DNA of 64,000 bases from Nitrospira sp. GTDB taxonomy: Bacteria > Nitrospirota > Nitrospiria > Nitrospirales > Nitrospiraceae. The first letter of the stretch is position 1, and each line of letters opens with the position of its first letter. A program made the position numbers and the translations under genes. The notes below the pieces were generated by a model that was not told the origin of the DNA, did no database searches, and saw nothing but the letters and a program-made list of their open reading frames with translations. Below are positions 16,944 through 33,638 of this stretch, piece by piece. The stretch is from positions 2,155,001 through 2,219,000 of the forward strand of contig CP054184.1 of assembly GCA_015709715.1 (NCBI GenBank), read 5' to 3'.

Positions 16944-17480
16944 TCAGCGGAGACGGCCAGCTGCCGCGGAGCCGTGGATACGCGCGGCCGTCTGCACGAA
17001 GAGCGGCAGAAGCCCAGCCCACAGCAAAGCCAGCAGTAGAAGTGCCAAGGCGTCGGTGGGCCCCAGCGTCAGCGCCCCAAAGGCCTGTCCGGCCCCATAA
17101 CTGACCGGCCCAGCCATCCCGCCGAGGAGGGCGGCCAGCCAGCTCCGCCCCTCCAGCCAGCGGAGCGAATGGTGCAACGTCGTGGCAAAGAGGTACCAGA
17201 GGGCACAGAGCCACGGTGGGCACAGCCAAGGCGCAAAGGGGTGATCACCGAACCGGAGCAGGCCCAACGCTGTCAGCCCGCTATCCAACAACAACCCGGC
17301 AGATCCAATCACCAGGACCACCAGGGTCATGGCGCGAGGCTGGGACGCATTCCAGATATTCACTGCGAGGAGCCCCCCCAGGACCGGGGGAGCCAACCAG
17401 GGCTGCCCCCGGCCGGCGCTCAGGATAGCGATCCACCATCCGAGCTGAAAGAAGACTGCATTGCCTAGGGTCTTGATCAT
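16944..17480 (-). CDS. DUF2878 integral membrane protein
   Basis: 178 residues from the ATG at 17480, which overlaps the stop of the upstream cfa gene (ATGA); an upstream in-frame extension would run inside cfa. Five or six membrane segments, Trp-rich, with SYGAGQAFGAL and a C-terminal helix ending in an Arg/Gly tail. Resembles the DUF2878 family, which recurs beside cfa, DUF1365 and FAD-oxidoreductase genes. No biochemical role is established. Confidence 0.72.
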   Translation of the reverse strand: MIKTLGNAVFFQLGWWIAILSAGRGQPWLAPPVLGGLLAVNIWNASQPRAMTLVVLVIGSAGLLLDSGLTALGLLRFGDHPFAPWLCPPWLCALWYLFATTLHHSLRWLEGRSWLAALLGGMAGPVSYGAGQAFGALTLGPTDALALLLLALLWAGLLPLFVQTAARIHGSAAAGRLR

Positions 17481-18787: not shown

Positions 18788-19569
18788 CCGGAAGACCTCC
18801 CTGTCTGCGCCAGCGAGGCGCGTGTCTTGGGGTGTGGGTAAAAGGGACAGTGTTTCATCCACAGCCGCAAGGCCTGCCAATGAATCGCGCCGATGACCCT
18901 GGCGGTCATGAACGGGTATTGCACCAGGGTCCGCGCGAGGGACGCGGCCGTAAGTTCACGGCGTGTCAGAACCATGGTCGCGTCGAAGAAGCGGCGCCCA
19001 TCACGCAGATTCACCATATGCACCATCAGACGCTCGCCCGGAGCGCCAAAACGCCAATCGTAGTCCACGTCCATCGGCATAAAGGGCGACACGTGGAATT
19101 GCTTTCCGAATCGATACCGGTGGTGAAGGCCGTGGCCCTCGTCCAAAGTCCGATCCAACACATAACAATGCCGTTCGCCCCAGGGCGTGTTCGTCACCTC
19201 GGCCACAATGGTTTCCAAGAACCCATCCGCGTGGTCGAAGCAGTAGTAAAAACTGACGGGATTGAAGACATACCCAAAGTACCGCAGGTGGGTCAGCAGG
19301 CAGATCGGTCCCGCAGGCCTCCGCCCTGTAGCGGTTTCGACGAGGTCGCGAACGCTTTGATCCAGCGGCACGCCTGCATCGCCCACATGGTCCGCTCGGC
19401 GAAACCAGGCCAGATTCGGATGCGAGGCCGACCAGAACCAGCGCCCGTCGAACAGACTCGGCAACTCGTCCAAATCCAGGTAGAGCATGAACAGGGCATA
19501 CCGAAACACATGGCTCACCGGGGCCATTCGCCGATGCCGCACCGTTCCCTCATAGACGCCGCTCCTCAT
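18784..19569 (-). CDS. DUF1365 family protein
   Basis: 261 residues from the ATG at 19569, overlapping the preceding FAD-oxidoreductase stop by four bases. Family motifs visible: YEGTVRHRRMAPVSHVFRY at the start, LRYFGYVFNPVSFYYCFD in the middle and FHVSPFMPMDVDYDW. DUF1365 proteins almost always travel with CFA-type methyltransferases and FAD amine oxidases and are thought to act in fatty-acid modification. The biochemical activity is not established. Confidence 0.9.
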   Translation of the reverse strand: MRSGVYEGTVRHRRMAPVSHVFRYALFMLYLDLDELPSLFDGRWFWSASHPNLAWFRRADHVGDAGVPLDQSVRDLVETATGRRPAGPICLLTHLRYFGYVFNPVSFYYCFDHADGFLETIVAEVTNTPWGERHCYVLDRTLDEGHGLHHRYRFGKQFHVSPFMPMDVDYDWRFGAPGERLMVHMVNLRDGRRFFDATMVLTRRELTAASLARTLVQYPFMTARVIGAIHWQALRLWMKHCPFYPHPKTRASLAQTGRSSG

Positions 19570-20825
19570 TGCGCCCAGGCCTCCAGCGCTCGACAGGCCG
19601 CCATGGCACTCTTCACGCCATCCTCGTGAAAGCCGAATCCCCAATAGGCTCCACAATAGAACGTGCGCTGCTGCCCGTTGATGGACCCGTACCGCTCCTG
19701 TACCGCGACCGCCTGGGGCGAATACACCGGGTGGTGATAGACAATGCGCTTTAGAACCTTCGCCGGGTCGATCGCCTCGCCATGGTTCAAGGTCACGCAA
19801 AACTCACAGGGGGCATCGAGACGCTGCAGCCGGTTCATGTGGTAGGTCAGGACGACCCGCTCCGGCGGTGTGGGCAGCAGATGATAGTTCCACGCCGCCC
19901 AGGCCAGTCGCCGCTTCGGCAACAGGGACCGATCGGTATGCAACACCGCTTCGTTTCGCTGGTAGCGGATCGCACCCAACACGTCCTGTTCCAAGGGCGA
20001 GGGGTTCGCTAGGAGCGCCAAGGCCTGATCGCTATGGCAGGCCAGCAGGGCCGCCTCGAAGCGCTCGGCTTGCCCTCGTCCCTGCCGGTCTCGCCACCGC
20101 ACTTCCACGCCTTGCGGGAAGCGTGCAATGGATTCCACTGGAGATTGCAGTCTTATCCGGTCGCGGAAGGGTCGTACCAACGGATCAACATACCGCTGCG
20201 ATCCGCCTGTAATGACGCGCCAGGTCGGCCGGTTGTTCACCGACAACATTCCATGGTGCTTGAAAAATCGGACCAGATATTGGGCCGGAAAGTCCCAGAT
20301 CGTCGCCTGGCCGGCCGACCAGATGGCCCCCGCCATGGGCAGCAGATAATTCCGAATGAAAGGCTCCGAGTAGCGCTCGTGTTCGAGGTAGGCCCCGAGC
20401 GACGGTCCGGGCCCCGGCTGCTCCAGCAACGCGACCGATTCACGATTGAATCGAAGGATGTCGCGAACCATCCGGTAAAAGGACGGCCGCAGAAGATTAC
20501 GTCGTTGCGCAAAGAGGCTGTTCAGGGTGGTCCCGTTGTATTCCAGGCCGGTGCGCTCGCAACGCACGCTGAAGCTCATGTCGCTTGGCTGATGCGCAAC
20601 GCCCAGCTGGTCGAGCAGGGCGATGAAGTTGGGATAGGTCCAATCGTTGAAGACGATGAAGCCCGTATCCACGGCATAGGTCTTTCCTTCGCAAGGGACC
20701 TCGACGGTGTTCGTATGCCCACCGATGTAGTCCCCCGCCTCGAACAGGGTGAGATCGTGCCGGCCGTGGAGGAGGTGGCCCGCCGTCATGCCCGCGATGC
20801 CGCTACCGATAATGGCGATTTTCAT
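19566..20825 (-). CDS. FAD-dependent amine oxidase/phytoene-dehydrogenase-like protein
   Basis: 419 residues from the ATG at 20825, coupled to the SDR gene by an ATGA overlap. Dinucleotide-binding motif IAIIGSGIAGMTAG at the N-terminus followed by FEAGDYIGGHTNTV, the second FAD contact. The C-terminal part has the YCGAYWGFGFHEDG motif of this subfamily. Likely a flavin oxidoreductase working on lipids with the DUF1365 and CFA neighbours. Substrate not known. Confidence 0.88.
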   Translation of the reverse strand: MKIAIIGSGIAGMTAGHLLHGRHDLTLFEAGDYIGGHTNTVEVPCEGKTYAVDTGFIVFNDWTYPNFIALLDQLGVAHQPSDMSFSVRCERTGLEYNGTTLNSLFAQRRNLLRPSFYRMVRDILRFNRESVALLEQPGPGPSLGAYLEHERYSEPFIRNYLLPMAGAIWSAGQATIWDFPAQYLVRFFKHHGMLSVNNRPTWRVITGGSQRYVDPLVRPFRDRIRLQSPVESIARFPQGVEVRWRDRQGRGQAERFEAALLACHSDQALALLANPSPLEQDVLGAIRYQRNEAVLHTDRSLLPKRRLAWAAWNYHLLPTPPERVVLTYHMNRLQRLDAPCEFCVTLNHGEAIDPAKVLKRIVYHHPVYSPQAVAVQERYGSINGQQRTFYCGAYWGFGFHEDGVKSAMAACRALEAWAQ

Positions 20826-21592
20826 GGCTCTCTCACTAGCCGGGCGCACAAGCGCAGGTAGAGTCGAGTCGGCAGCAGAGTCAACAGCTTGAACGCCAGA
20901 CTGAAGCGTTTCGGAAAGTGAATCTCCGCCTTGCCCGCTTCGATGCCATCCACGATTCGGCGAGCTGCATCCTCCGCCTCGATGCGAAAGGGCATGGGAA
21001 AATCGTTCCGGTCCGTGAGGGGCGTCCGCACGAAGCCGGGACAGACGACGGACACCGTGATGCCAAGTCGGTACAGGTCGATTCGCAGGGACTCCAACAG
21101 GTACCTGATGGCTGCCTTCGATGCCCCGTAGGCCTCGGCGCGCGGAAGCCCCGCGTAGGCCACTGTGCTGCTCATGCCGACGAGGTGAGGAGCCGGTGAT
21201 TGTCGCAGGAGCGGCAACACTGCCTCGATGCCATAGACCATGCTGAGAAAGTTGCTACGCATCGTCCGCTCGAACACTGCGCTGTCGAAGCGATCGACCT
21301 CGACATATTCACAGGTGCCAGCATTGAGAACCGCCACATCAAGGCCGCCGAACTGACCGACGATCTCGGAGGCCGCCCGGCGATTAGCGACAGGATCGGA
21401 CACATCGCAAGGGACTGCCGCCAGGCGGTCGCCGCCGCACTGCTCTACGAGGTGATGGAGCGGGGACTCGTTCCGCGCCGACGCGATGACGGTGGCGCCG
21501 CGACGCACCAATTCGACGGCCACCGCTCGACCGATGCCGCTCGATGCGCCGGTGACCCAAACCCGTCGCCCGTTGACCGGATGCCGCCTCAT
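20822..21592 (-). CDS. short-chain dehydrogenase/reductase
   Basis: 256 residues. Classical SDR signature: cofactor motif VTGASSGIG (residues 13-21), NAG in AVLNAGTCEY, catalytic YGASK with an upstream Ser in GMSSTVAYAG, and the PG motif CPGFVRTPL. NADP(H) is the likely cofactor (Arg in SARNES). Starts one base after the NTF2-like gene stop and overlaps the FAD oxidoreductase gene. Same module as cfa/DUF1365. Confidence 0.9.
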   Translation of the reverse strand: MRRHPVNGRRVWVTGASSGIGRAVAVELVRRGATVIASARNESPLHHLVEQCGGDRLAAVPCDVSDPVANRRAASEIVGQFGGLDVAVLNAGTCEYVEVDRFDSAVFERTMRSNFLSMVYGIEAVLPLLRQSPAPHLVGMSSTVAYAGLPRAEAYGASKAAIRYLLESLRIDLYRLGITVSVVCPGFVRTPLTDRNDFPMPFRIEAEDAARRIVDGIEAGKAEIHFPKRFSLAFKLLTLLPTRLYLRLCARLVREP

Positions 21593-21593
21593 C

Positions 21594-22016
21594 TCACACC
21601 CGCTCCTTGATGAGTCGAATGACCATGCCGATTACGGGGATCTGTTCGTACAGCATCGCACCTGCGTCGAAATAATCCCGGTGGTAGTGAATCTTCTGCC
21701 GGAAGTGCAGGTGCGTGGAGCCTGGCACCACCACCGGCTGCCCGCCATTGAGCTTCGGGTGCCTCAGTGCCATCGTCCACATCAGCACGGCCCGCTGGTC
21801 CTGCAGCACTTCCTCGTCAAAGGTGAAAGAACAGGCTTCCACGTGGGCATACAATTCCGCAAAATACCGCATGACGGCTCCAAGCCCATCGAGTTTCCGG
21901 AAGGGATCCTGAAACACCACATCATCCGCGTAGAGATCCGGCAAGCGTCCCACCGTCTGGGCGTTCAGCCGTCGGTAGGTCTCCTTGAACCGCTCCACGA
22001 TCGGCTGCATGGACAT
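21594..22016 (-). CDS. NTF2-like/SnoaL-like protein
   Basis: 140 residues from the ATG at 22016, with AGAGGA just upstream; ATG at 22010 or 22028 are alternatives. An N-terminal helix (IVERFKETYRRLN) followed by DLYADDVVFQDPF, the usual NTF2-fold pocket start, and a run of beta strands (FDEEVLQDQRAVLMWTMAL). Small pocket proteins of this type commonly accompany the SDR-FAD-DUF1365-CFA module. Catalysis or ligand binding cannot be assigned. Confidence 0.8.
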   Translation of the reverse strand: MSMQPIVERFKETYRRLNAQTVGRLPDLYADDVVFQDPFRKLDGLGAVMRYFAELYAHVEACSFTFDEEVLQDQRAVLMWTMALRHPKLNGGQPVVVPGSTHLHFRQKIHYHRDYFDAGAMLYEQIPVIGMVIRLIKERV

Positions 22017-22038
22017 TGTTCCTCTCATCGCCGAATGC

Positions 22039-22638
22039 TCATCGGTTCAACAGCCGGGCCTTCAAGGCCTGGTTGATGGGGTCCGGCCCCAGCCAAATGG
22101 CGAAGTAGGCCGCCGCAAAGTCCGCACCCTCGACGGTCCCCTTCACGACTCCGTTGAGGGCCAGCTCGGTACCCACTCCCGGGAGATAGGTCAATCCGTA
22201 CCGATCACCCGGCTTCACATCTTCATAGAGGCGATGCATCTGTTCGATTCGCGGCGCCAGGATCGAGAGCGTCTCCGGCGGAACATTGTCTGCCAAGACC
22301 TTGGTGGCGGCTCGCCCAAACTCTGCCCTCCGGATGCTGCGGAAATAGGACAACTCCAGGCGCTTCGGCACGTCGTCCAACACTCGGTCGGGCTCCAAAG
22401 CCGATGGGAGATAAAGGGCGGCCACATAGAGAGAAATCGTCCGCATGAACTTCGCGAGACCGACTCCCCGTAGTGGCAGAGTCACGGAACCGGCATGGAT
22501 CGAATCGGGGAAGGTCACGCCCTCGAGGGAAGCCGCCATGCCTGGGCTCGGCATCGCGACCAGCAGAAAGCCCAACAGCCCGCAGGGTACCGTCCGGTTC
22601 CACCATTTCTGCCATCGCTGTTGTAGCCCCCTCCCCAT
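22039..22638 (-). CDS. periplasmic chalcone isomerase-like protein
   Basis: 199 residues with a signal peptide (LLGFLLVAMPSPGMAAS, about residues 21-37). The mature part has the chalcone-isomerase-fold pattern: GVTFPDSIHAGSVTLPLRGVG, a Tyr-rich strand ISLYVAALYLPS, and KRLELSYFRSIRRAEFGRAA. Bacterial members bind fatty acids or haem-like ligands rather than chalcones. It fits the lipid theme of the neighbours. Ligand unknown. Confidence 0.82.
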   Translation of the reverse strand: MGRGLQQRWQKWWNRTVPCGLLGFLLVAMPSPGMAASLEGVTFPDSIHAGSVTLPLRGVGLAKFMRTISLYVAALYLPSALEPDRVLDDVPKRLELSYFRSIRRAEFGRAATKVLADNVPPETLSILAPRIEQMHRLYEDVKPGDRYGLTYLPGVGTELALNGVVKGTVEGADFAAAYFAIWLGPDPINQALKARLLNR

Positions 22639-23250: not shown

Positions 23251-24204
23251 TCACACGTGGTTGCGTAACATGAGCTCTTTCGGATGTGGGTTGAGATACA
23301 CCTGGTCATGGACGTACTCGACATCGAAAACCTGGACGTAATGTTTGATCAGCGTGAGGGGTACGATCAGCGGCGTAAGGCCCTGATGGTAATCCGCAAT
23401 GACGCCCAACAGTTCCTGCTTTTCCTGCACGGTCAACCGGTCTTTGAAGTGCCCCAGAATATGTTGCAGAACGTTCACGTGTTTGCGCACCGTCGCCTTC
23501 ACGGCCAAGGCTTGCATGAACAACTCGCCGTATCGGGAGGCCAGTTCGTGCGGGCGGTGTTGATTGGCCTGCGCCACCAGGCGTCCAAGCGTCTGGTAGT
23601 GCCGGACGCTGTGCGCGAGCAGGAGATACTTGTGAATCGTGTGGAACCGCACTACGGCCTGCCTGGTCGCCCCCCCCTGCACGAGATCGCGCCAGCGCCG
23701 ATAACAAAACACCCGCTCGATGAAGTTCTCGCGCAGAATGGGATCACACAGCCGACCTTCCTCTTCCACTGGGGTCAGGGGAAAGCGTTTCATGAAGGCC
23801 ATGGCAAACAGACCCACCCCCTTGCGGTTCGGCATTCCATGTTTGTTATAGAGGCGCACCCGCTCGATTCCGCAGCTCGGCGAGTCCTTCTTGAAGACGT
23901 AACCGGACAGGTCCAGCCGGTCGAGTTCAAGGAGGCGGCTCTTCGCCATCGCCTCGATCGCGGGCGTATGGTCCTGCCCGCTCTTGATGGTCATGAGGCG
24001 GGGACCATCAGGGTCGCCGACCAACCGCATCGCTTCGCGCGGGGTCCCCAACCCGGCTTCCACTTCGGGACAGACCGGCACCCATTCGACATACCGCCCC
24101 AACAGGTCGGTGAGAAAGGCATCCCGCTTGTGCCCTCCATCGAATCGCACACCCTCTCCGAGCAGGCAACGGCTGATCCCCAGGCGAAGCGGCGCGATGG
24201 TCAT
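23251..24204 (-). CDS. DUF523-DUF1722 two-domain protein (YbgA-like fusion)
   Basis: 317 residues from the ATG at 24204, coupled to the photolyase stop (ATGA). N-terminal DUF523 (ISRCLLGEGVRFDGGHKRD, VCPEVEAGLGTPRE, and a second Cys in DSPSCGIERV), then DUF1722 from about residue 180 (FHTIHKYLLLAHS...HPKELMLRNHV). The same pair is regularly found next to photolyases and LitR/CarH regulators. Recent work links the DUF523 fold to thiouracil desulfidases, but a function here is unproven. Confidence 0.88.
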   Translation of the reverse strand: MTIAPLRLGISRCLLGEGVRFDGGHKRDAFLTDLLGRYVEWVPVCPEVEAGLGTPREAMRLVGDPDGPRLMTIKSGQDHTPAIEAMAKSRLLELDRLDLSGYVFKKDSPSCGIERVRLYNKHGMPNRKGVGLFAMAFMKRFPLTPVEEEGRLCDPILRENFIERVFCYRRWRDLVQGGATRQAVVRFHTIHKYLLLAHSVRHYQTLGRLVAQANQHRPHELASRYGELFMQALAVKATVRKHVNVLQHILGHFKDRLTVQEKQELLGVIADYHQGLTPLIVPLTLIKHYVQVFDVEYVHDQVYLNPHPKELMLRNHV

Positions 24205-25643
24205 GTCGTCCCCTTCTGTTTGGCCAAGGTGAGATATTCTTCCCGCGCAGTCTTGTGGTCCACCATCGGCGCAGGATAGTCGACCCCGATCCGGCACCCG
24301 GCCCGCTCCTGTTCATCGGGTGGCATGAGATGCGGCTCATGGAGCCACTTCACAGGCACCTCCGCCAGTTCCGGCACATAGTGCCGAATGTAGTCCCCGT
24401 CGCGGTCGAATTTTTCGCTTTGGATGCGCGGGTTGAAGATTCGATACCCCTGCATGGCGTCTGTGCCCGTGGATGCGCACCATTGCCAGTTTCCGTTGTT
24501 GGCCGCCAGATCACCGTCCACCAGGTGCTGCATGAAGTACCGCTCGCCGCTCTGCCAATCGATCCGAAGGTCCTTCACGAGGAAAGAGGCCGTGACCATG
24601 CGCACCCGATTGTGCATCCAACCAGTCTGATTGAGTTGTCGCATCCCCGCATCCACGATGGGATAACCGGTGCGGCCCTCGCACCAGGCCGCAAACAAGC
24701 AATCACGATCGGGGCCCTCTGGGCGCGGTGCCGGCAATCCGTCCTTCGCCTTGAACGGTCCCTTGGTCACCTGGGGAAAGGCCATGAGCACCTGTTGAAA
24801 AAATTCTCGCCAGACCAATTCGTCGAGCCAGGTGAAAACATCGGCCCTGGAAACGGCCCCCCCTGCCGTGAGGGCGGCCAAGGCCGCATGCACGGCTGTT
24901 CGGGAGGACAGGGTGCCAAATCGGAAGTGTGGAGACAGTTTGGACGTCCCATCGAGCGCAGGCAGGTTGCGCCCATTCACGTAATCATGGATCGGCCCGC
25001 GCAGGAACCATTGCAACCTGGACTGGGCCGCCCGTTCTCCCGGTTCGATCCACAGCGGAACCTGCTCGTAGCCCAAGTCCTGCGCCGACGGCCAGTCCCG
25101 CGGCATCGATGTCTCGTTGCCGTCCGCTCTCCGCTTGGGCGCCGGAATCATCGGCGGAGTCGCTGCGCGCCACTGGTTCCACCAGCGATCCCGGTAGGCG
25201 CTGTACCTTTGGAAGGGGTCACCGGTCAACCCACGAACTTCCTCCGCCTCGAACACGACATGGTCCTTGAATGTCTTCACGGTTCTGCCCTGCTGGGAGA
25301 GGCAGTCCTGGACCCTGCGATCGCGATCCCGCGCGGCCGGCTCGTAATCCCGATTCCAGTAGACCGCGTCGATCCCGAGATCCCTCACCGCCTGGAGGAC
25401 TGCCTCGGTCTGCTCACCGATGCGGTACTGGAGCATTAGCCCCAGTTGGCCAAGCGAGGCTCTCAATTCATTCAAGCAGCCCAGCATGAACCCGACGCAG
25501 GCAGATCCGAACAGGTGGGAGCGCAGGAGCGGCTCGTCGAACACGAACAGCGGCACGACCTCTCGGCAGTCCCGGCAGGCGGCAAACAAAGCGGGATTAT
25601 CGCGGACACGGAGGTCACGGCGAAACCACACCAACCCCTTCAT
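24201..25643 (-). CDS. phrB: deoxyribodipyrimidine photolyase (class I CPD type)
   Basis: 480 residues. N-terminal antenna-binding Rossmann domain starts LVWFRRDLRVRDNPAL; the C-terminal FAD domain carries RMVTASFLVKDL and DGDLAANNGNWQWCASTGTDA, the strongest photolyase signature. It uses blue light to split cyclobutane pyrimidine dimers. This gene is the clearest functional marker that the surrounding array answers to light. Its 3' end overlaps the DUF523 gene and its start lies inside the preceding gene's end. Confidence 0.95.
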   Translation of the reverse strand: MKGLVWFRRDLRVRDNPALFAACRDCREVVPLFVFDEPLLRSHLFGSACVGFMLGCLNELRASLGQLGLMLQYRIGEQTEAVLQAVRDLGIDAVYWNRDYEPAARDRDRRVQDCLSQQGRTVKTFKDHVVFEAEEVRGLTGDPFQRYSAYRDRWWNQWRAATPPMIPAPKRRADGNETSMPRDWPSAQDLGYEQVPLWIEPGERAAQSRLQWFLRGPIHDYVNGRNLPALDGTSKLSPHFRFGTLSSRTAVHAALAALTAGGAVSRADVFTWLDELVWREFFQQVLMAFPQVTKGPFKAKDGLPAPRPEGPDRDCLFAAWCEGRTGYPIVDAGMRQLNQTGWMHNRVRMVTASFLVKDLRIDWQSGERYFMQHLVDGDLAANNGNWQWCASTGTDAMQGYRIFNPRIQSEKFDRDGDYIRHYVPELAEVPVKWLHEPHLMPPDEQERAGCRIGVDYPAPMVDHKTAREEYLTLAKQKGTT

Positions 25644-26068
25644 GACGGAACCTCCGGAGTAGACGCCAGCCGACGGGCCGGTGGCAAGGGATCGGCGAAC
25701 AGTGCCCGCCGCCAGGCCAGGTAACAGAGAAACAAGACCGTGGAAACCATGAATCCCGTTCTCAATCGATGGAATCCAAATGCCAGTTGATTCAACAACT
25801 CACTTACGATCCCGAACCCGCCATACGCCATGGCGAGCCCCCAAGCCCAGGGGCGAAGGAACAAGAAGCCGTAGCCAATGACGAAGTGGGCGGCCGGAGA
25901 ATGGAGCTTCACGATATAGGCCAGCGGACCGGCGATCGTGACGCCGAACAACTTCAGGGCATAAGCCGGGAAGAACTCGATGATGAGCAGATCGATCAGG
26001 CCGACGAGGACGAAGAGAGCCCCGAACAGTTTGATGTCCCGCCCGTGCTCACTGCTATGGCCGGCCAT
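25640..26068 (-). CDS. small integral membrane protein, function unknown
   Basis: 142 residues from the ATG at 26068, which has AAGGAGGA nine bases upstream. Four predicted helices: FGALFVLVGLIDLLIIEFF, PLAYIVKLHSPAAHFVIGYG, AWGLAMAYGGFGIVSEL and TGFMVSTVLFLCYLAW, with a short His-rich start and a Pro-rich tail. The stop overlaps the photolyase start. I do not recognise a named family. Likely a membrane companion of the photolyase region. Confidence 0.72.
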   Translation of the reverse strand: MAGHSSEHGRDIKLFGALFVLVGLIDLLIIEFFPAYALKLFGVTIAGPLAYIVKLHSPAAHFVIGYGFLFLRPWAWGLAMAYGGFGIVSELLNQLAFGFHRLRTGFMVSTVLFLCYLAWRRALFADPLPPARRLASTPEVPS

Positions 26069-26225
26069 GGTCAGGTCCTCCTTCCATTGCGGCGGCGATA
26101 TCGGATTGTTGCCGCACACTCGATTGGATCATTTCCTTCGCCATGCGAGCCAGGCCACCAGGCGGATCCACCAAGTCTTCCGTATGCCGATGCGCCAGGT
26201 TCAAGTAGAGCTGCTCCACCGCCAT
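26055..26225 (-). pseudogene. shifted-frame continuation of the PDZ protein, or a 56-residue overlapping gene
   Basis: Just before the PDZ gene ends, another minus-strand frame becomes strongly protein-like: RLSPDESWMAVEQLYLN, then LAHRHTEDLVDPPGGLARM and AKEMIQSSVRQQSDIAAAME, ending at TAG (26055-26057) inside the start of the next gene. An ATG at 26225 could begin it alone, but no ribosome site precedes it. The frame is open upstream of the ATG, so a one-base slip near 26250 would fuse it to the PDZ domain. Either a frameshift (real or sequencing) or a tiny coupled gene. Confidence 0.5.
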
Positions 26226-26680
26226 CCAGCTTTCATCCGGGGACAGCCGTAGAGAGTTTGACTGGATACTCGGGCAACCGTGATGTCCCGAACCTCGCCG
26301 TCTCGCTTCACGCCCAGCTTGACCACCGATCCGGCCTCGCCGCGTATCATCGACGCCACTTGTTCGTAGGTCTTGCCGGTGACGGCTTGCCCGTCCACAG
26401 TCACGAGTTCATCTCCTTGCTTCAACCCTGGTTGCTGCGCCGGCCCATCGGGATAGATCTGCGCGATGTACAAGACCGCCGGATCGCCCACACGCTCGGC
26501 GCCGACGTGGAGCGCCACCCCGATCACCCCATCCGGGCCCGACGTCTCCGCGCCGTGGCCGGACGTCGCCGTTCCCGGAGGCGATTCTGAGTGGGCCAGG
26601 GCCAAGCCAGAAGGGGGCCACGCCAGGGTCGTGATCAGCCCCACTAGCACGGTCATCTTGATTACGGATCTCGTCTCCAT
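26201..26680 (-). CDS. secreted PDZ-domain protein
   Basis: 159 residues. Signal peptide (MTVLVGLITTLAWPPSGLALA), a short linker, and one PDZ domain: AVLYIAQIYPDGPAQQPGLKQG, GDELVTVDGQAVTGKTYEQV and GSVVKLGVKRDGEV. The last about 15 residues (after VARVSS) look unlike protein-coding sequence and a better frame takes over (see 26055-26225), so the true C-terminus may be about 60 residues longer. PDZ domains bind peptide ends; here it presumably organises a periplasmic partner. Confidence 0.8.
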   Translation of the reverse strand: METRSVIKMTVLVGLITTLAWPPSGLALAHSESPPGTATSGHGAETSGPDGVIGVALHVGAERVGDPAVLYIAQIYPDGPAQQPGLKQGDELVTVDGQAVTGKTYEQVASMIRGEAGSVVKLGVKRDGEVRDITVARVSSQTLYGCPRMKAGWRWSSST

Positions 26681-26697: not shown

Positions 26698-27168
26698 TTA
26701 AAGGTGCAGGCTCATCAACAACAATCCCAGGCCCCCGAACAACACCAGTGCATTCAGATACAGTGACCGCTGATGCAAGCGGGTCCAGGCTGCCGACAAC
26801 TGCGCATCCACGGCACCCTGACGCTCTTGCTCCTTGAGCCGATCCCGCATCTCATTACTCCGAGGGGTGAGGGGCGAAAGGCAATAGTCTTCAGCGGCCA
26901 GGAGACACAGCCAGGTGAGACCGACCGCCCAGTAGAGCGGGCTCACTCCAGTCACCAGGCCGATGATGACCCACGAGAGCAGCCCCATCCCCGTCGCCAG
27001 CATGCCCAGCAAGTAATAGGCCGGGAACAGCTTCCGTACGACCTTGCCGAACGATTCCGGCTCCAAGGTCCTGGCCAGCACCGGAGCCACGACGAACGAA
27101 AGGCAGACCACCTTCCCTATGAGGGTGCCGATTGCCAGCGTATGAAGATATGTGAGCAGTCCTTCCAT
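26698..27168 (-). CDS. DUF4149-like four-helix membrane protein
   Basis: 156 residues from the ATG at 27168, preferred over the GTG at 27177 because GAGAGGTGA lies eight bases upstream. Helices begin LLTYLHTLAIGTLIGKVVCLSFVVAP, with FPAYYLLGMLATGMGLLSW and a last hydrophobic helix at the C-terminus, matching the DUF4149/TMEM205 pattern. A charged loop (RSNEMRDRLKEQERQG) separates helices 3 and 4. Function unknown. Confidence 0.75.
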   Translation of the reverse strand: MEGLLTYLHTLAIGTLIGKVVCLSFVVAPVLARTLEPESFGKVVRKLFPAYYLLGMLATGMGLLSWVIIGLVTGVSPLYWAVGLTWLCLLAAEDYCLSPLTPRSNEMRDRLKEQERQGAVDAQLSAAWTRLHQRSLYLNALVLFGGLGLLLMSLHL

Positions 27169-27204
27169 CCGAGTCACCTCTCCCGATTCCAGGCCAACCG
27201 GCCC

Positions 27205-28131
27205 TTACGCCGCTTCCGTTCGGCTTGGCCCATGCACGATAGCCTGCAAGGCCGCTTCGAGCGTCGGATAGACGAATTGGTACCCACCCGCTTGAGCCTT
27301 GGTCGGTTCCACCCGTTGCCCGGTCGTTAACAAGGTTCCCAGCTCGCCCAGCGCCACCTTGAGGGCAAGTTCCGGCACCGGCAGCCACGACGGCCGATGG
27401 AGCACGCGTCCGAGCACCTCACAGAACGTTTTCATCGTCACGGCCTCGGGCGCGACGGCATTGACCGGCCCGGCGACGCTCGGAGTGGCGAGGGCCCACA
27501 GGATCAAGCCGATCAGGTCTTGGCGGTGAATCCACGAAACCCACTGCGTGCCGGGCAGCACCGGACCTCCGGCGTAGAGACGAAACGGCAGCAGCATTTT
27601 CGCCAATGCCCCGCCGTCTCGTTCGAGCACCATGCCGATTCTGAGGAGGACCACGCGGGCTCCGGCTTGGGCTGCACGTTGCGCTTCGGCCTCCCAGCGC
27701 GCGGAGAGATCGGCCAGGAACCCTTGACCCAACGGAGCCTCTTCACCCAGTGCCCGCGCACCACCGACCCCGTAATACCCGATGCCCGAGGCGCTGATGA
27801 GCACTGGAGGCCTTGTGGCCTCTGCCATGAGACCATCGACCAGACAGCGCGTGGCGGATAGGCGGCTGTCGAGTAGTTGCCGCTTCCGCGCACTCGTCCA
27901 CCGCTTGTCGGCGATGGGCTCTCCCGCTAGGTTCACTACGGCCTGGGCGTCACGAAGGTCCTTCCACCAGGGCCCCGCCGACCTGGCGTTCCACTCCACC
28001 CGCTGCTCATTCGGGAAGGAGGGCTGTCCCGGCTTGCGCGTCAGCACGACGACCTGATGGCCAGCGCCACACAACTCGGCCACGAGCGCCCGGCCGATAA
28101 ATCCCGTTCCGCCCGAGACAACGATCTTCAT
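27205..28131 (-). CDS. TIGR01777-family NAD-dependent epimerase (YfcH-like)
   Basis: 308 residues from the ATG at 28131, which has AAAGGAGGCGG just upstream. N-terminal Rossmann motif VSGGTGFIGRALVAELC, then NLAGEPIADKRWTSARK, the hallmark of TIGR01777 proteins, and the C-terminal DUF1731 segment with GGYQFVYPTLEAAL. Related proteins are sugar-epimerase-like, with plant/cyanobacterial relatives tied to chloroplast division or pigment. Repeatedly found in light-responsive clusters. Substrate unknown. Confidence 0.9.
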   Translation of the reverse strand: MKIVVSGGTGFIGRALVAELCGAGHQVVVLTRKPGQPSFPNEQRVEWNARSAGPWWKDLRDAQAVVNLAGEPIADKRWTSARKRQLLDSRLSATRCLVDGLMAEATRPPVLISASGIGYYGVGGARALGEEAPLGQGFLADLSARWEAEAQRAAQAGARVVLLRIGMVLERDGGALAKMLLPFRLYAGGPVLPGTQWVSWIHRQDLIGLILWALATPSVAGPVNAVAPEAVTMKTFCEVLGRVLHRPSWLPVPELALKVALGELGTLLTTGQRVEPTKAQAGGYQFVYPTLEAALQAIVHGPSRTEAA

Positions 28132-28168: not shown

Positions 28169-28534
28169 TCAGGGGTCTTCGTCCAGGTCCGCCTCATCGT
28201 CACCATCCGATCCCGCGACCTCATCAGCCTTCTCATCGACCTGTCCAACCGTGCCGCCCTCGCTCGACCGTTTCGTCACCCGCTGACTGAACTTGCGTTC
28301 CTTGGTCCCGTACAGCAAGTTCGGCGGCGGACTGCGGCGATTTCTGAGAATGACGGGATCGATGACCTCGCCACAGAGGGTACAGTGCCAGGCGGTGATA
28401 TCAATCTGACCCGTATCATCAAGCAAGTCGACATAGTGCTGTATGAGTAAGAGCCCTCCACATCGGGCACAGGCATGACCCCGCGCAGGCGTGAGGGAGG
28501 GTCTCCTTCGTCCCGGTGTCCCATTTGTTTCCAT
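28169..28534 (-). CDS. zinc-ribbon protein, paralogue of the 32302-32586 gene
   Basis: 121 residues from the ATG at 28534, the start that aligns with the paralogue; ATG at 28606, directly after the upstream stop, is the alternative. Two CxxC knuckles, HACARCGGLL and WHCTLCGEVIDPVI, separated by about 30 residues (LDDTGQIDITA), form a likely zinc ribbon. A very acidic C-terminus (GDDEADLDEDP) follows. May bind metal or nucleic acid. Two copies of this family frame the SUMF1 genes. Confidence 0.68.
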   Translation of the reverse strand: METNGTPGRRRPSLTPARGHACARCGGLLLIQHYVDLLDDTGQIDITAWHCTLCGEVIDPVILRNRRSPPPNLLYGTKERKFSQRVTKRSSEGGTVGQVDEKADEVAGSDGDDEADLDEDP

Positions 28535-28606
28535 TGGAACCCCCGCATTAAGACAGGGTAGAACCTCATACTCAGGAGCCGCACGCATTCCTCCGCGCAG
28601 CTCCAT

Positions 28607-28738
28607 TCACCGAACCGAAACCCGAACTGGGCCCGAACACCGACGGACCGGCATTGGCACCGGCCGACGAGCCTTGGCCGCCCAGGCAACAAGGCTTAGA
28701 GCGATGACTGCCATACCACCGAGCATCACGCCGACCAT
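28607..28738 (-). CDS. 43-residue single-helix membrane peptide
   Basis: Very short gene with a perfect ribosome site (AAGGAGGTGG, three bases before ATG at 28738). The product has one hydrophobic helix (MVGVMLGGMAVIALSLVAWA) and a basic Arg/Pro tail with one Cys; its TGA abuts the ATG at 28606. The 153 bases between it and the SUMF1 gene upstream hold no other gene I can see. The strong initiation site and helix make it more than chance, but no homologue is known to me. Confidence 0.5.
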   Translation of the reverse strand: MVGVMLGGMAVIALSLVAWAAKARRPVPMPVRRCSGPVRVSVR

Positions 28739-28891: not shown

Positions 28892-29755
28892 TCACTTCGC
28901 GCCGACCTCCTGACTCGCATGGCCCTGCTGAGCCGCCTCGAGGCTGCGCGCGCACCGGAAGCCCGTACCGTGGGTCTGCAGCGCGAATCCACCGCGCCCC
29001 CTCGCCGCCGCACCGATGTCCGAGACCGGGCTGTGCCACGACCCTCCTCTAATCACCCGAACGACGCCCTTGTCGGGGCCCACTGGGTTCCGGGTCGGCG
29101 CACTGGCGTAGTAGTCGGGGTCGTACCAATCCTGGACCCACTCCCGAGCGTTACCGGCCATATCCTTGACGCCGTAGGGGGAGTCGCCCTCCGGCTTTGT
29201 ACCCACTGGATGCATGGTCTTCTCCCCATCCCATTCGCGATCGTAATTGGCCCGCAGCAGGCTCGGCTGGTCGTTTCCCCAGGGGAACTGACGCCCATCC
29301 GTACCGCGCGCCGCCTTTTCCCATTCCGCCTCCGTCGGCAAACGTTTTTTTGCCCAAGTGCAGTAAGCCTTCGCGTCGTACCAAGTCACTTGTACGACAG
29401 GCAGTTGTTCGATTCCCTTCGGCGAGGTCAACGAACCGGTGCCATAGGGGTTCGGCGGGTTGCGGTGCCCGGTCATGGTCACAAACGCCATGTAGCGCTC
29501 GTTGGTCACCTCCACCTGATCGATTGTGAAGGCGTCGACGTGTACCATGCGTTGTGGCCATTCATCGGCCCGGCCCTGGGGGTTGTCATTGCCCATCAGG
29601 AAGGACCCCGCTTTAATGGTGACCATGGGAACGGGGTCCAGCTCCTTGACCGGGGCCGCTGCGAAGACCGGCGACAGGGCGACCGCGCAGGCCACCGCAG
29701 CGAATAGGCCGATCGACGAATGGCTCGGTCTCCTCCTTATGAAAACATGTGTCAT
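28892..29755 (-). CDS. secreted SUMF1/formylglycine-enzyme-fold protein (paralogue 3)
   Basis: 287 residues from the ATG at 29755, overlapping the preceding gene's stop. Signal peptide (IGLFAAVACAVALSPVFAAA), then the SUMF1 fold: FLMGNDNPQGRADEWP, VEVTNERYMAFV, WYDAKAYCTWAKKRLPTEAE, GNAREWVQDWYDPDYY and the closing THGTGFRCARS. The pair of cysteines that makes true formylglycine-generating enzymes work is missing (no Cys in the SDIGAAARGRGG region), so oxidation of sulfatase cysteines is unlikely. Third of three paralogues in one array. Confidence 0.85.
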   Translation of the reverse strand: MTHVFIRRRPSHSSIGLFAAVACAVALSPVFAAAPVKELDPVPMVTIKAGSFLMGNDNPQGRADEWPQRMVHVDAFTIDQVEVTNERYMAFVTMTGHRNPPNPYGTGSLTSPKGIEQLPVVQVTWYDAKAYCTWAKKRLPTEAEWEKAARGTDGRQFPWGNDQPSLLRANYDREWDGEKTMHPVGTKPEGDSPYGVKDMAGNAREWVQDWYDPDYYASAPTRNPVGPDKGVVRVIRGGSWHSPVSDIGAAARGRGGFALQTHGTGFRCARSLEAAQQGHASQEVGAK

Positions 29756-30120
29756 TTCTTCTGCTCCTTGCTCCCTTCGATGGCCCGGGCCGTATGCATT
29801 TTGATTTCCCCGACCAGGCGACCTACCTGCTGGACTTCTCCCCGGTCGGCGGCTTCTTGTGCCTGGGGCACGAGGGTTCTCGCTTCGTGGAGATGTTGCT
29901 CGATTTGCGCTTGTAGCGCGGGCGAGGCAATCGTCCCGCCCAACGCCGCACGGTGATACACCTCCCATGCATGGTCCACGCTATGCTCGGCTTCGTGGAC
30001 CATCTGGAGCGCGTCCGGATGGGGATGGCGGGAGCTATCGATGGGACCCGCCTGCGTCACTGCCGTACTCAACACGAGTGCGATACCACCGATCAGAGAA
30101 CCCATTCGTGAGCCCCTCAT
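29752..30120 (-). CDS. small exported helical protein
   Basis: 122 residues. Signal peptide (GSLIGGIALVLSTAVTQAG, about residues 7-25), then an all-helical, His-rich mature part (RHPHPDALQMVHEAEHSVDHAWEVYHR; the latter half QIEQHLHEARTLVPQA). GGGAGG lies eight bases before the ATG at 30120. It looks like a small periplasmic helical-bundle protein, possibly metal-binding through its histidines. Coupled by overlap to the downstream SUMF1 gene. No family recognised with confidence. Confidence 0.65.
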   Translation of the reverse strand: MRGSRMGSLIGGIALVLSTAVTQAGPIDSSRHPHPDALQMVHEAEHSVDHAWEVYHRAALGGTIASPALQAQIEQHLHEARTLVPQAQEAADRGEVQQVGRLVGEIKMHTARAIEGSKEQKK

Positions 30121-30169: not shown

Positions 30170-31228
30170 TCATCGCTGTTTCAACGACTGTTCGATGAGC
30201 GCCTTCAACTCCAGCAGCTCGACACTCTTCGGATCCAGGGCCAAGCCCCGGTTCACCGATTGCTGGGCTTCGGCAAACCGCTCACGGCCCATCTCGACCA
30301 GCGCAACGATGTATGTGTCCCTGATGAGCTGTTCAAGCTCGGGCGGTGCCACCTTCGCGCAGCGGAACCCCAACCCCACGCCGTAACTGTTGTTGAGCGG
30401 GTGGTTCCAGAACCGATGTGTCGAACGGACCGTGCCCTCAGGAGCGATCCACGACCCTCCCCGGATGACGCGCTTCTCGCCGACCGTGAGGCGATCGACG
30501 TAGGTCCCGGTGCCGCCGATCCAGAGCGGTTTCTCCGGACCGGTCGGGTTCACCATGGTCTGCAACTTTCCGTAGTATTGCGGGTCGTACCAATCGTTCA
30601 CCCACTCGAAGACGTTCCCTGCCATATTGTAGGCGCCGTAATAACTGGCTCCCTCCGGCAAGGCATCCACAGGCAGCGTCGCTTCCCGCTGGCGGTTGTA
30701 ATTGGCCTTGGCGGCATTGAACTCGTTGCCCCATGGATACAGGTTGGCATTAGGGCCCCGCGCGGCCTTTTCCCACTCGGCTTCCGTCGGCAGCCGCTTG
30801 CCACGATATTCGCAATAGGCCTTCGCGTCATACCAATTCACCCCCACCACCGGCTGGTGCGGTGTATTAAGACGAGGGTCATCCCAGTAGGCCGGAGCCG
30901 GGTGGCTTGTAGACATGATGAACTCGCCGTAGTCCTTGTTCGAGACCTCGTACTTGTCGATGAGATAGGAATCCAAGAAGACCATGTGAGCCGGCCCTTC
31001 GTCATGAAACGCCTCGGCCGACCAGGGAGTCTTCATGCGCTTGTCATAGGCGGTGAGCCGTTTGCTCGACTCGGTCTGCTGTTCATGATCGAGACCCATC
31101 ACTGACGGCCCATGACCTACATAGACCATGTCCTTGGGTACGAGCGGGTCCTCTGCCTGCGCCGCCGCGCTGAACAGCGAGAGCGTCGTGATCACTCCAA
31201 CCTGTAAGATGCGTTCGATTGTCTTCAT
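30170..31228 (-). CDS. secreted SUMF1-fold protein with C-terminal TPR-like tail (paralogue 2)
   Basis: 352 residues. Signal peptide (VGVITTLSLFSAAAQAED), SUMF1 core with YEVSNKDYGEFI, WYDAKAYCEYRGKRLPTEAE, GNVFEWVNDWYDPQYYG, VIRGGSWIAPEGT and GLGFRCAKV, then about 55 residues that look like a TPR unit (AEAQQSVNRGLALDPKSVEL). The catalytic Cys pair of formylglycine-generating enzymes is not present. It differs from paralogue 3 by the extra TPR-like tail, which it shares with paralogue 1. Confidence 0.86.
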   Translation of the reverse strand: MKTIERILQVGVITTLSLFSAAAQAEDPLVPKDMVYVGHGPSVMGLDHEQQTESSKRLTAYDKRMKTPWSAEAFHDEGPAHMVFLDSYLIDKYEVSNKDYGEFIMSTSHPAPAYWDDPRLNTPHQPVVGVNWYDAKAYCEYRGKRLPTEAEWEKAARGPNANLYPWGNEFNAAKANYNRQREATLPVDALPEGASYYGAYNMAGNVFEWVNDWYDPQYYGKLQTMVNPTGPEKPLWIGGTGTYVDRLTVGEKRVIRGGSWIAPEGTVRSTHRFWNHPLNNSYGVGLGFRCAKVAPPELEQLIRDTYIVALVEMGRERFAEAQQSVNRGLALDPKSVELLELKALIEQSLKQR

Positions 31229-31290: not shown

Positions 31291-32250
31291 CTACTTTTTT
31301 GTGCTCTTCTTGATCAGCTCTCGGGTTGCCTGGTATTCCGCATTGTTCGGATCCAGGGAGAGGGCTTTCTCGATTGAGGCCATAGCATCGGCTTGTTTCT
31401 CTGCCCCCATGGCGACCAGTGCTTGGATGAACGCCTCACGAGCGGCCTGGATCGACTCTTCGGACACGGCGGTGACCGACTTCGCGCAGCGGAAGCCCAG
31501 CCCAACGCCGTAGGAATTGTTCTCCGGCTGATTCCAGAATCGATGGCTCGTATGCAGTGAGGTCTCCGGCGCCAGCCAAGATCCGCCGCGCAGCACCTTG
31601 ACCGGGCCCTGGTTGGCGAAGTTGTATCCCTTCTCGGCGCCGCGAGGATTCAGCGCGAGGCTGCTCTTGTAGTACTTCGGGTCGTACCAGTCTTCGACCC
31701 ACTCGAAGACATTGCCCGCCATGTTGAAGACGCCAAACCCGCTCACGCCCTCGGGATAGGAATCCACCGGCATGGTGCGGCCGACGTTCTGTCCGTAATT
31801 GGCCTTTTTGGGGTCTAGGTGGTGGCCCCAAGGATAATGATTGTCTCCCTCCGGGCCCTTAGCGGCCCGTTCCCATTCCGCCTCAGTCGGCAGCCGTTTC
31901 CCCTCCCACTTGCAGAATGCGTTCGCATCCGTCCAACTCACGCCGACCACCGGCTGAGTCGGACCGTTGAGCCGCGGATCGTCCCAGTAGGCTGGGGCAG
32001 GGTGACCAGTCGCCCGCATGAACTCCTTGTAGCGGGCGTTCGACGCTTCATACTTGTCGATCAAATAGGCATCGAGAACGACCTGGTGCTTCGTTTCATC
32101 CGAATGTTCATTACTGCCCATGGCGAATTCCCCCCTGGGAATCTTCACCATATCCTTCTCGGCTACCGTCTCGGCGGCATTCGCCAACGAGAGTGAGCCT
32201 GCAACCAGCACTGTCCCGAGTCCCACTTGCAACAATGTGTGTCTCCGCAT
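31291..32250 (-). CDS. secreted SUMF1-fold protein with TPR-like tail (paralogue 1)
   Basis: 319 residues. Signal peptide (VGLGTVLVAGSLSLANAAE), KIPRGEFAMGSNEHSDETKH, YEASNARYKEFMRATGH, WTDANAFCKWEGKRLPTEAE, GNVFEWVEDWYDPKYYK, VLRGGSWLAPETSLH and GLGFRCAKS. C-terminal KQADAMASIEKALSLDPNN is TPR-like. Clearly a recent duplicate partner of the 30170-31228 gene (YWDDPRLN, TQPVVGVSW versus HQPVVGVNW). First SUMF1 gene after the divergent promoter. Not an active formylglycine generator by the missing Cys pair. Confidence 0.87.
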   Translation of the reverse strand: MRRHTLLQVGLGTVLVAGSLSLANAAETVAEKDMVKIPRGEFAMGSNEHSDETKHQVVLDAYLIDKYEASNARYKEFMRATGHPAPAYWDDPRLNGPTQPVVGVSWTDANAFCKWEGKRLPTEAEWERAAKGPEGDNHYPWGHHLDPKKANYGQNVGRTMPVDSYPEGVSGFGVFNMAGNVFEWVEDWYDPKYYKSSLALNPRGAEKGYNFANQGPVKVLRGGSWLAPETSLHTSHRFWNQPENNSYGVGLGFRCAKSVTAVSEESIQAAREAFIQALVAMGAEKQADAMASIEKALSLDPNNAEYQATRELIKKSTKK

Positions 32251-32301: not shown

Positions 32302-32586
32302 TTAGACCGGAACCTGCCCTTGGATGGCTACTGCCGGCTGGGAGATCAACCGTTCCGCAGTCGAGATAACACGGAAATGCCGCTTGCGCCGAATGACTGC
32401 ATCGACGACGTCCCCGCATTGCACGCAACGCATGGTTTCAGAGTCCAGTTCGCCGATCGTGGCCAGCACATCCATGTGGCAATCCCGCACAAGCAACCCT
32501 TCGCAGCGGGTGCAAGCGGTTTCACACCCTCGATGATCTACCGTTCTGAGAGCCTCTCTGTTGCCGCCTCGCCCCGCCATCGCCAT
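32302..32586 (-). CDS. zinc-ribbon protein, first gene of the light-linked array
   Basis: 94 residues from the ATG at 32586, with AAGGAGG five bases upstream. Two CxxC pairs, ETACTRCEGLL and MRCVQCGDVVDAVI, with the same spacing as the 28169-28534 gene, so the two are paralogues. A basic central part (RRKRHFRV) could touch nucleic acid. It is the first gene after the minus-strand promoter that faces carH. Confidence 0.75.
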   Translation of the reverse strand: MAMAGRGGNREALRTVDHRGCETACTRCEGLLVRDCHMDVLATIGELDSETMRCVQCGDVVDAVIRRKRHFRVISTAERLISQPAVAIQGQVPV

Positions 32587-32624
32587 GTTGACCTCCTTCT
32601 TAATGTTCAATCTTTGTAACGAGT

Positions 32625-32698
32625 ATGTCTAATGTATAACCTCTAATGTCCAATGTGTCAAGTGTTTATATATTAAATATTTGACAAACATTAGACAT
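32625..32698. promoter_or_regulatory. operator boxes (ACATTAGA family) between carH and the array
   Basis: ATGTCTAATGT at 32625-32635 and its perfect inverted match ACATTAGACAT at 32688-32698 flank the region; a third, shorter TCTAATGT lies at 32642-32649. One box falls in each promoter spacer and one on the minus-strand -10 edge. In addition TTTGACAAACA and TTAGACATGTG (32680-32701) form an 11-base-spaced TTnGACA direct repeat over the carH -35, the spacing known for CarH operators. Confidence 0.65.
32633..32661 (-). promoter_or_regulatory. sigma-70 type promoter for the minus-strand array
   Basis: On the minus strand: -35 TTGACA (32661-32656), 17-base spacer, -10 TATACA (32638-32633). The spacer contains ACATTAGA, and a second ACATTAGACAT overlaps and follows the -10. 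It points at the zinc-ribbon gene at 32586, leaving a leader of roughly 40 bases. Near-consensus elements with operator-like boxes suggest a strong promoter held off by a repressor. Confidence 0.8.
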
Positions 32699-32709
32699 GT
32701 GAATATAAT
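32681..32709 (+). promoter_or_regulatory. consensus promoter of the CarH-like gene
   Basis: TTGACA (32681-32686), 17 bases, TATAAT (32704-32709): a perfect sigma-70 consensus. The ACATTAGACAT box lies inside the spacer, so the regulator probably represses itself. The expected transcription start (about 32716) is only about five bases before the ATG at 32721, so the mRNA may be nearly leaderless. Confidence 0.85.
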
Positions 32710-32720
32710 TCCAATGAACG

Positions 32721-33638
32721 ATGAATGCTCATAGAATTCATAGAGTTGCGAAGCTTACCGGGCTGTCGAAGGATGTGATCCGGGTTTGGGAGCGCCGATT
32801 TGGACTTCTCAAGCCAACGCGAGGAGCCAATCGGTACCGCAATTATTCGGATGAGGATGTGGCACTGCTGCGTTATCTGAAGGAACAGCTCGATGCCGGT
32901 ACGTCGATCGGCGATTTGGCAAAACTGGGGCGGGAAGAATTACTGCATCGTGCACGGGTCGCAACGCCGCGCACGGCGATCGTAGACAATACGTTTGATC
33001 GGCTGCTGCGGGAGCTGCTCGCGGCGTTGACCCCGCTCGACCGGATCACGTTCGAAAAGCGCTTGAACGGGGCGGTCGCGGTCGTGCCGTTCGAAGAAGC
33101 GCTCCACGGCATCCTCGTGCCGCTGCAGGAGCAGGTGGGACAGCTCTGGCACGACGGGCGCATCCATATCGCTACCGAACATTACGTGACCAATCAGATC
33201 CAGCAGAAGATGTTCGCGGCGCTGAATCAGCTCCCCGTCGCCGAGTTCGGCGCGAAGGTCATCGTCGCCTGCCCGCCCGGGGAAGAACACAACCTCGCCG
33301 CCCTGGCTCTAGCCTATCGGTGCCGCGTGCGCGGCTGCCGAGTCTACTACCTAGGATCCAACGTTCCGGTCGCTTCGCTGAGTGCGCTCTGCCGCGAAGT
33401 GAAGCCGAACCTGACGATCTTGTCCTTTCCTCTTGCCTTCCCGGATGCGCGCGCCGCCGACGTGGTGCAGGCGCTGGCGTACGAGGTCTGTCCGTTTTCC
33501 ACCGTCGTGGCCGGCGGCAACGGCGCATTGGCCATGCGGGACCATTTCAATCGGGCTCACATCGAAGTACTGGAAGGGTTCGGAGAGTTGGATGCCAAGT
33601 TGGAACAGCTCACGAGACGTTCAACTATTCCAAGTTAA
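32721..33638 (+). CDS. carH: CarH/LitR-type B12-dependent light-sensing MerR repressor
   Basis: 305 residues. N-terminal MerR helix-turn-helix (HRVAKLTGLSKDVIRVWERR, residues 7-26), a four-helix linker domain and a C-terminal cobalamin-binding Rossmann domain. Residues that bind and sense adenosylcobalamin in Thermus CarH are all present with the right spacing: W143-H144, E153-H154 (Trp-x9-Glu-His) and lower-ligand candidate His190 in PGEEHNLAAL (ExHxxG with Gly changed to Ala). In the dark such proteins bind DNA as tetramers; light breaks the Co-C bond and frees the promoter. Divergent from the photolyase array it likely controls. No ribosome site before the ATG; a leaderless start is probable. 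Converges on rnhA with a four-base overlap. Confidence 0.9.
   Translation: MNAHRIHRVAKLTGLSKDVIRVWERRFGLLKPTRGANRYRNYSDEDVALLRYLKEQLDAGTSIGDLAKLGREELLHRARVATPRTAIVDNTFDRLLRELLAALTPLDRITFEKRLNGAVAVVPFEEALHGILVPLQEQVGQLWHDGRIHIATEHYVTNQIQQKMFAALNQLPVAEFGAKVIVACPPGEEHNLAALALAYRCRVRGCRVYYLGSNVPVASLSALCREVKPNLTILSFPLAFPDARAADVVQALAYEVCPFSTVVAGGNGALAMRDHFNRAHIEVLEGFGELDAKLEQLTRRSTIPS

Follow-up and report, generated by a model that had tools for sequence, protein, structure and literature searches.

In a Nitrospira of the nitrite-oxidizing type, a repressor very probably senses light through vitamin B12 and, by way of a conserved control region, turns on a series of genes against sunlight damage. 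These genes cover the repair of DNA and tRNA, antioxidant lipids of the membrane, and several unexplained proteins that are secreted. A search for AMO gave no match, and neither did its control, so that comammox metabolism may still apply. The locus lies in a stretch of 64,000 nucleotides (hereafter, the window) that represents positions 2155001-2219000 of a single-contig 4.16-Mb Nitrospira genome, and the genome contains one close CarH match. The reading with the best support for this region is a light-sensing repressor that depends on B12 and stands at the head of a photoprotection array: the light signature is complete, the predicted fold resembles that of Thermus thermophilus CarH (TtCarH), conserved TnnACA boxes lie over both promoters, and AdoCbl-forming enzymes are encoded. 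Light sensing itself, and control that extends over the whole 15.6 kb, are what we infer from these features.

A CarH-like protein with a complete light signature

The sensor candidate is encoded by a single gene:

32721..33638, + strand: carH-like gene, 305 aa, with MerR DNA-binding and four-helix-bundle/Rossmann cobalamin-binding domains

In this open reading frame, MerR_1 and B12-binding_2 exceed their Pfam cut-offs (for MerR_1, 59 bits versus a cut-off of 21.6, with the RxWERRY/F recognition helix reading RVWERRF), and the B12-binding family scores 27.3 bits, below its cut-off of 32.1. The NCBIfam CarH equivalog NF052513 reaches 128 bits versus a 400-bit cut-off and is still the best-scoring family. 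The closest solved relative found by phmmer is Thermus CarH/LitR (E 6e-28). Structural modeling against Thermus CarH, proposed as a check in the earlier note, points to the same protein. In an AlphaFold model built from 20 homologues (mean pLDDT 86), the four-helix bundle and Rossmann cobalamin domain of the TtCarH type are both present, the top Foldseek matches are all TtCarH, and the predicted structure aligns to the TtCarH cobalamin domain (VIA-align) with Z 23.0 and an rmsd of 2.2 Å over 197 residues; the value for methionine synthase (Z 17.2) is clearly lower.

The AdoCbl contacts that the earlier note listed as kept (W143, H144, E153, H154, and H190) are all there, and the adenosyl-capping motif Wx9EH reads W143-x9-E153-H154. 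The same note gave their spacing as that of Thermus, which is correct from W/H to E/H and slightly wrong from H154 to H190 (36 residues versus 35 in Thermus). Other CarH-like proteins also vary by one residue at this point, and the conclusion on CarH is unaffected. In a 20-sequence alignment of diverse homologues, W143, E153, H154, and H190 are invariant, as are G140, E188, and S235. A published signature that marks light-responsive cobalamin domains consists of GxxW, EH, GxxH, and GxxxP (PMC11796333). All four elements are present (G140QLW143, E153H154, G187EEH190, and G212SNVP216, the last taken from its position as the YLGxxxP element).

The classic B12 motif, D/ExHx2G/Px41SxT/Vx22-27GG (PMC9304148), does not occur in its strict form. 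The earlier note named one change, the replacement of the ExHxxG glycine by alanine; this residue is indeed Ala (A193, in the place of G/P), but SxT/V is altered as well, to S235-F-P237. Retained are E188-H190, the x41 spacing, and GG265-266. Among 52 CarH-like proteins of the order, Ala193 occurs in 30 and Pro237 in 12, which makes both of them lineage traits.

The two altered elements could suggest a repressor that works independently of B12, in the manner of Myxococcus xanthus CarA or the class II LitR of Pseudomonas, and that an antirepressor or a short LOV partner releases. It would also fit this reading that the locus has its furan-fatty-acid, RudS, and photolyase genes in common with Pseudomonas class II LitR loci (PMC9758184, PMC11417400). 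However, both cobalamin subdomains and Wx9EH, the motif that separates photoreceptor CarH from B12-binding CarA (PMC9304148), are intact and invariant in close relatives, whereas CarA is without the Trp. In class II LitR the C-terminal domain is not of the B12 type, and the Rossmann cobalamin domain whose absence marks that class is present here. We therefore regard a B12-independent repressor as highly improbable.

The genome encodes adenosyltransferases of two families (BtuR and PduO), so that AdoCbl can be made from cobalamin. Homologues with 70-80% identity and the same neighbors recur across Nitrospira, including Ca. N. defluvii, which argues that the arrangement around carH is more than chance.

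Putative operators overlap both divergent promoters

The carH gene and the array that it faces are separated by a divergent region of 134 bp (32587-32720) that carries TnnACA boxes. The predicted elements are as follows:

32681..32709, + strand: carH promoter, TTGACA-17-TATAAT, a 12/12 match to consensus
32681..32697, + strand: putative carH-side operator, TTGACA 32681-32686 (doubling as the -35 element) and TAGACA 32692-32697, 11 bp apart
32661-32656 and 32638-32633, - strand: array promoter, -35 TTGACA, 17 bp, and -10-like TATACA
32604..32661, - strand: putative array-side operator, TGAACA 32609-32604, TAGACA 32631-32626, and TGGACA 32652-32647, with spacings of 22 and 21 bp

Every box reads TnnACA on the strand of its own promoter, and the layout is one of tandem repeats, with a pair spaced by 11 bp on the carH side (one of the two is the -35) and a set of three at intervals of 21-22 bp in front of the array, where the -35 and the -10-like hexamer sit among the boxes. 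Box pairs at 11 or 22 bp have p of about 0.001 versus simple shuffles. The published CarH operator unit, nnnnTnnACAn, is known from Thermus, Bacillus megaterium, and myxobacteria, with one unit including the -35 (PMC9304148, PMC8156234). The array side has weak points, in that the pseudo-units falling between boxes 22 bp apart match poorly and the -35 box lies 9, not 11, bp from its neighbor.

These elements are conserved across the order. In 43 of 47 homologous upstream regions the carH-side TTGACA and a TRGACA are 11 bp apart, and the same 47 regions contain TGTYYAATGT boxes directly repeated at 22 or 21 bp. In a separate collection, the carH-side pattern is matched by 64 of 75 upstream regions, with most of the others off by a base or two. 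From sequence, then, the conserved TnnACA boxes that overlap both divergent promoters support the wiring through CarH.

Between the end of the -10 element of the carH promoter and the ATG there are 11 bp, in which no Shine-Dalgarno sequence is visible, so carH probably has a near-leaderless message. This close spacing of -10 and start (32704-32723, + strand) is retained in relatives.

A search of the 4.16-Mb genome with two strict operator patterns yielded no other convincing site, although weaker or degenerate operators would escape such patterns. A third match (G000 2871849, TTGACCGTCACATTGGACA), with a single box and without a consensus -35, was attributed to chance. Control of carotenoid synthesis, the usual role of CarH, was also considered. 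Two genes of the squalene/phytoene-synthase family occur elsewhere in the genome, and no convincing strict-pattern operator was found outside the carH region.

Gene content of the array

The earlier note described an unbroken minus-strand array facing carH, and this is what we find: from 32586 to 16944 (about 15.6 kb) there is no plus-strand gene. In order from carH, the genes (all on the - strand) are:

32302..32586, -: ZnR1, small protein containing two CxxC motifs, both invariant; first array gene, AAGGAGG before its ATG
31291..32250, -: FGE1, SUMF1/FGE-fold protein, exported (N-terminus resembling a signal peptide), with invariant histidines but lacking the copper cysteines of FGE
30170..31228, -: FGE2, exported SUMF1/FGE-fold protein
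29752..30120, -: small protein, no Pfam family
28892..29968, -: FGE3, SUMF1/FGE-fold protein that probably starts close to 29779
28607..28738, -: 43-aa open reading frame with a Shine-Dalgarno sequence (read directly), in the only large gap
28169..28606, -: ZnR2, second zinc-ribbon-like protein
27205..28131, -: NAD-dependent epimerase with DUF1731 domain
26698..27177, -: DUF4149 membrane protein
26201..26680, -: exported PDZ protein
25640..26119, -: membrane protein, no Pfam family
24201..25643, -: class I-type DNA photolyase
23251..24297, -: RudS-type tRNA 4-thiouridine desulfidase (TudS + DUF1722; PMC11417400)
22674..23324, -: CbiX-like chelatase family protein
22039..22638, -: chalcone-isomerase-like protein
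21594..22028, -: NTF2/SnoaL-like protein
20822..21592, -: short-chain dehydrogenase (SDR)
19566..20849, -: FAD-dependent oxidoreductase of the amine-oxidase family, candidate UfaD counterpart (PMC7380195)
18784..19800, -: DUF1365 protein, UfaO-type (PMC7380195); true start probably downstream of the listed one
17477..18880, -: CMAS-family methyltransferase, UfaM/cfa-like (PMC9758184)
16944..17567, -: DUF2878 membrane protein, last gene before pyrE

The photolyase and the cfa-like, DUF1365, FAD, SDR, NTF2, and chalcone-isomerase-like genes of the original description are thus all present, but that description left out the genes that are nearest to carH and most conserved; missing from it were the zinc-ribbon protein, the three SUMF1/FGE-fold proteins, the epimerase, the PDZ protein, and RudS.

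Several products have a plausible place in a response to photo-oxidative damage. Apart from the array photolyase, no FAD_binding_7 protein was found in the genome, which leaves it as the sole photolyase. The genome also encodes ThiI, the enzyme that produces 4-thiouridine and thereby the substrate for RudS. UfaO is a protein with the DUF1365 domain, and the methyltransferase of furan-fatty-acid synthesis is UfaM (PMC7380195, PMC9758184). The CMAS-family gene would be the UfaM counterpart, and by sequence the cfa/DUF1365/FAD genes appear to be UfaM/UfaO-type genes for furan-fatty-acid synthesis (the ufa cassette). Rhodobacter cells without furan-fatty-acid synthesis die from singlet oxygen (PMC7380195). 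The CbiX-like chelatase might tie tetrapyrrole or B12 supply to a B12-dependent switch.

Conservation and the extent of CarH control

In 40 stretches from relatives, a core of carH, ZnR, FGE, epimerase, PDZ, photolyase, and RudS genes persists through much of the genus and family, and in part through a second family. What stays constant is the SUMF1-fold trio with the zinc-ribbon protein, usually accompanied by the epimerase and photolyase; what varies is the ufa cassette.

Two CarH genes per genome (about 70% and 51% identical to that of the window) occur in L051-L055, L067, L070, and L071, and most of these genomes have a conserved divergent operator at each copy. In L063-L066, from another family, the last array gene is a second CarH-like paralogue (about 30%) with EQ or EN for EH; this is reminiscent of the CarA-type, B12-independent partner in a CarA/CarH pair. 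A 3.2-kb contig titled Pyrinomonadaceae bacterium (L089) encodes a CarH 75% identical to that of the window and is probably a mis-binned Nitrospira contig.

How far control by CarH extends along the array is a separate question from the nature of the sensor. It is possible, if on the unlikely side, that control by CarH stops at the proximal genes (carH, ZnR1, the three SUMF1-fold genes, and possibly some others), with photolyase, RudS, and ufa genes under other promoters and the array made up of at least two units; this would be compatible with the best explanation of the sensor itself. The ufa cassette is locally missing in several relatives among the 40 stretches, in which carH and the SUMF1-fold genes remain. 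Further, among the 44 named loci whose array side spans >9 kb, no partner is as constant as the FGE genes (FGE3 in 44/44, FGE1 in 42/44), and the photolyase is found within about 9 kb in 30/44. There is also a 123-bp gap upstream of mem25/phr. On the other hand, the genes are co-directional, many overlap, and most gaps are <65 bp (the single 285-bp gap holds the 43-aa open reading frame). Scans for intrinsic terminators and sigma-70 promoters within the array gave fewer sites than shuffled sequences, with no convincing internal promoter or terminator. Photolyase also strongly co-occurs with CarH (106 of 120 genomes with CarH versus 15 of 77 without, in counts that ignore relatedness). Given that no internal CarH box was found near the distal genes and that the ufa cassette is missing in several relatives, the distal genes may have promoters of their own.

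The SUMF1/FGE-fold proteins

FGE1-3 all have the SUMF1/FGE fold (PF03781, E 1e-46 to 1e-56), and in all three the copper Cys pair of FGE (RGGS-x2-C-x4-C) is absent at its position; the Streptomyces CHDSYC aligns to APETSL in FGE1. Seven FGE1 histidines (H49, H55, H83, H138, H143, H233, and H236) are invariant in 39/39 homologues, and two of the seven belong to the HTSH that adjoins the position of the lost copper cysteines. These invariant residues, and the location of HTSH, suggest another metal site.

A CarH-type system is already known in kind, and the SUMF1-fold partners are the unusual part. Our search of the open-access literature found no paper linking CarH to Nitrospira or to SUMF1-fold proteins, although some may exist. 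One tentative idea, which we hold as rather doubtful, is that the exported SUMF1-fold trio, with a new HxxH histidine site, is the core and ancestral target of CarH and serves in periplasmic protection from, or repair of, light damage, rather than pigments or DNA repair being that target. These conserved exported proteins, with no function assigned, are the most promising subject for follow-up.

Proposed mechanism and implications

We consider it likely that the protein is a class I LitR/CarH photoreceptor that keeps carH and the array repressed without light and frees both upon illumination. In the dark, AdoCbl-loaded CarH would assemble on the tandem TnnACA boxes that overlap the two divergent promoters and block RNA polymerase, keeping carH and the array low. 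UV, blue, or green light would break the cobalt-carbon bond, so that the oligomer dissociates and both promoters open. Among the products released, photolyase would repair DNA, RudS would strip near-UV-sensitive 4-thiouridine from tRNA, and UfaM, the DUF1365 protein, and the flavoprotein would make furan fatty acids that quench singlet oxygen; the exported SUMF1-fold proteins would appear with them. Release of carH alongside the array would make this an autoregulated photoprotection response. In this scheme we infer AdoCbl binding, release by light, DNA binding at the TnnACA boxes, a single transcript reaching DUF2878, and the role of each product.

The same protein could instead be primarily a sensor of B12 status, such that shortage of AdoCbl, not light, opens the array. 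Apo-CarH is a poor DNA binder (PMC8156234), N. marina is a B12 auxotroph that relies on salvage (PMC8115632), and a gene for a CbiX-like chelatase lies within the array. Yet the array is above all one of photolyase, RudS, and furan-fatty-acid genes, and the light residues (W143, H144, E153, and H154) are retained, including the Wx9EH that distinguishes photoreceptor CarH from CarA (PMC9304148). This makes a primary role in B12 sensing quite unlikely.

Nitrite oxidizers are strongly inhibited by blue-green light, and gene regulation has been suggested to act in recovery, with no sensor named (PMC9797979). For Nitrospira inopinata, wavelengths below 550 nm inhibit activity (PMC9797979), and CarH absorbs in this range. 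A conserved B12 light switch with a mapped putative operator and an apparently single target region makes the poorly understood light response of nitrite oxidizers directly testable. CarH would also tie that response to the supply of vitamin B12, which some Nitrospira must obtain from neighbors (PMC8115632).

Comparison with known systems

The singlet-oxygen response of Rhodobacter sphaeroides (UfaM/UfaD/UfaO) likewise involves a UfaM-type methyltransferase and a DUF1365 protein (UfaO), but there the ufa genes respond to singlet oxygen via ChrR/sigma-E and not via a B12 photoreceptor. The class II LitR regulon of Pseudomonas (PplR1/PmlR1-2) shares photolyase, UfaM, FAD oxidoreductase, SDR, and RudS with the Nitrospira array and is repressed in the dark, as proposed for that array. 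In contrast, class II LitR is without the B12-type C-terminal domain and acts via short LOV proteins and TGTACA-N12-TGTACA sites. On plasmid pAZKH of Azoarcus sp. KH32C, a divergent MerR/B12 gene that keeps Wx9EH faces the same lipid cassette in the same arrangement, as FAD-DUF1365-cfa-CHI-MFS-DUF3833-SDR-NTF2, although that locus has no photolyase, RudS, or SUMF1-fold genes, and its CarH-like protein has 28% identity.

For the sensor and its operator, the counterpart is the class I CarH/LitR of T. thermophilus. The Nitrospira protein is about 30% identical to it and has Ala for the motif Gly as well as SxP; its putative targets are not carotenoid genes, and the array-side boxes lie two turns apart (21-22 bp). 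The two proteins share domain order, fold (Z 23), Wx9EH, and the lower axial His, and the putative carH-side operator resembles that of Thermus in its 11-bp TnnACA units, of which one is the -35 element. In Thermus brockianus, a CarH-like gene on a plasmid also diverges from a photolyase-containing set (crtB-phr).
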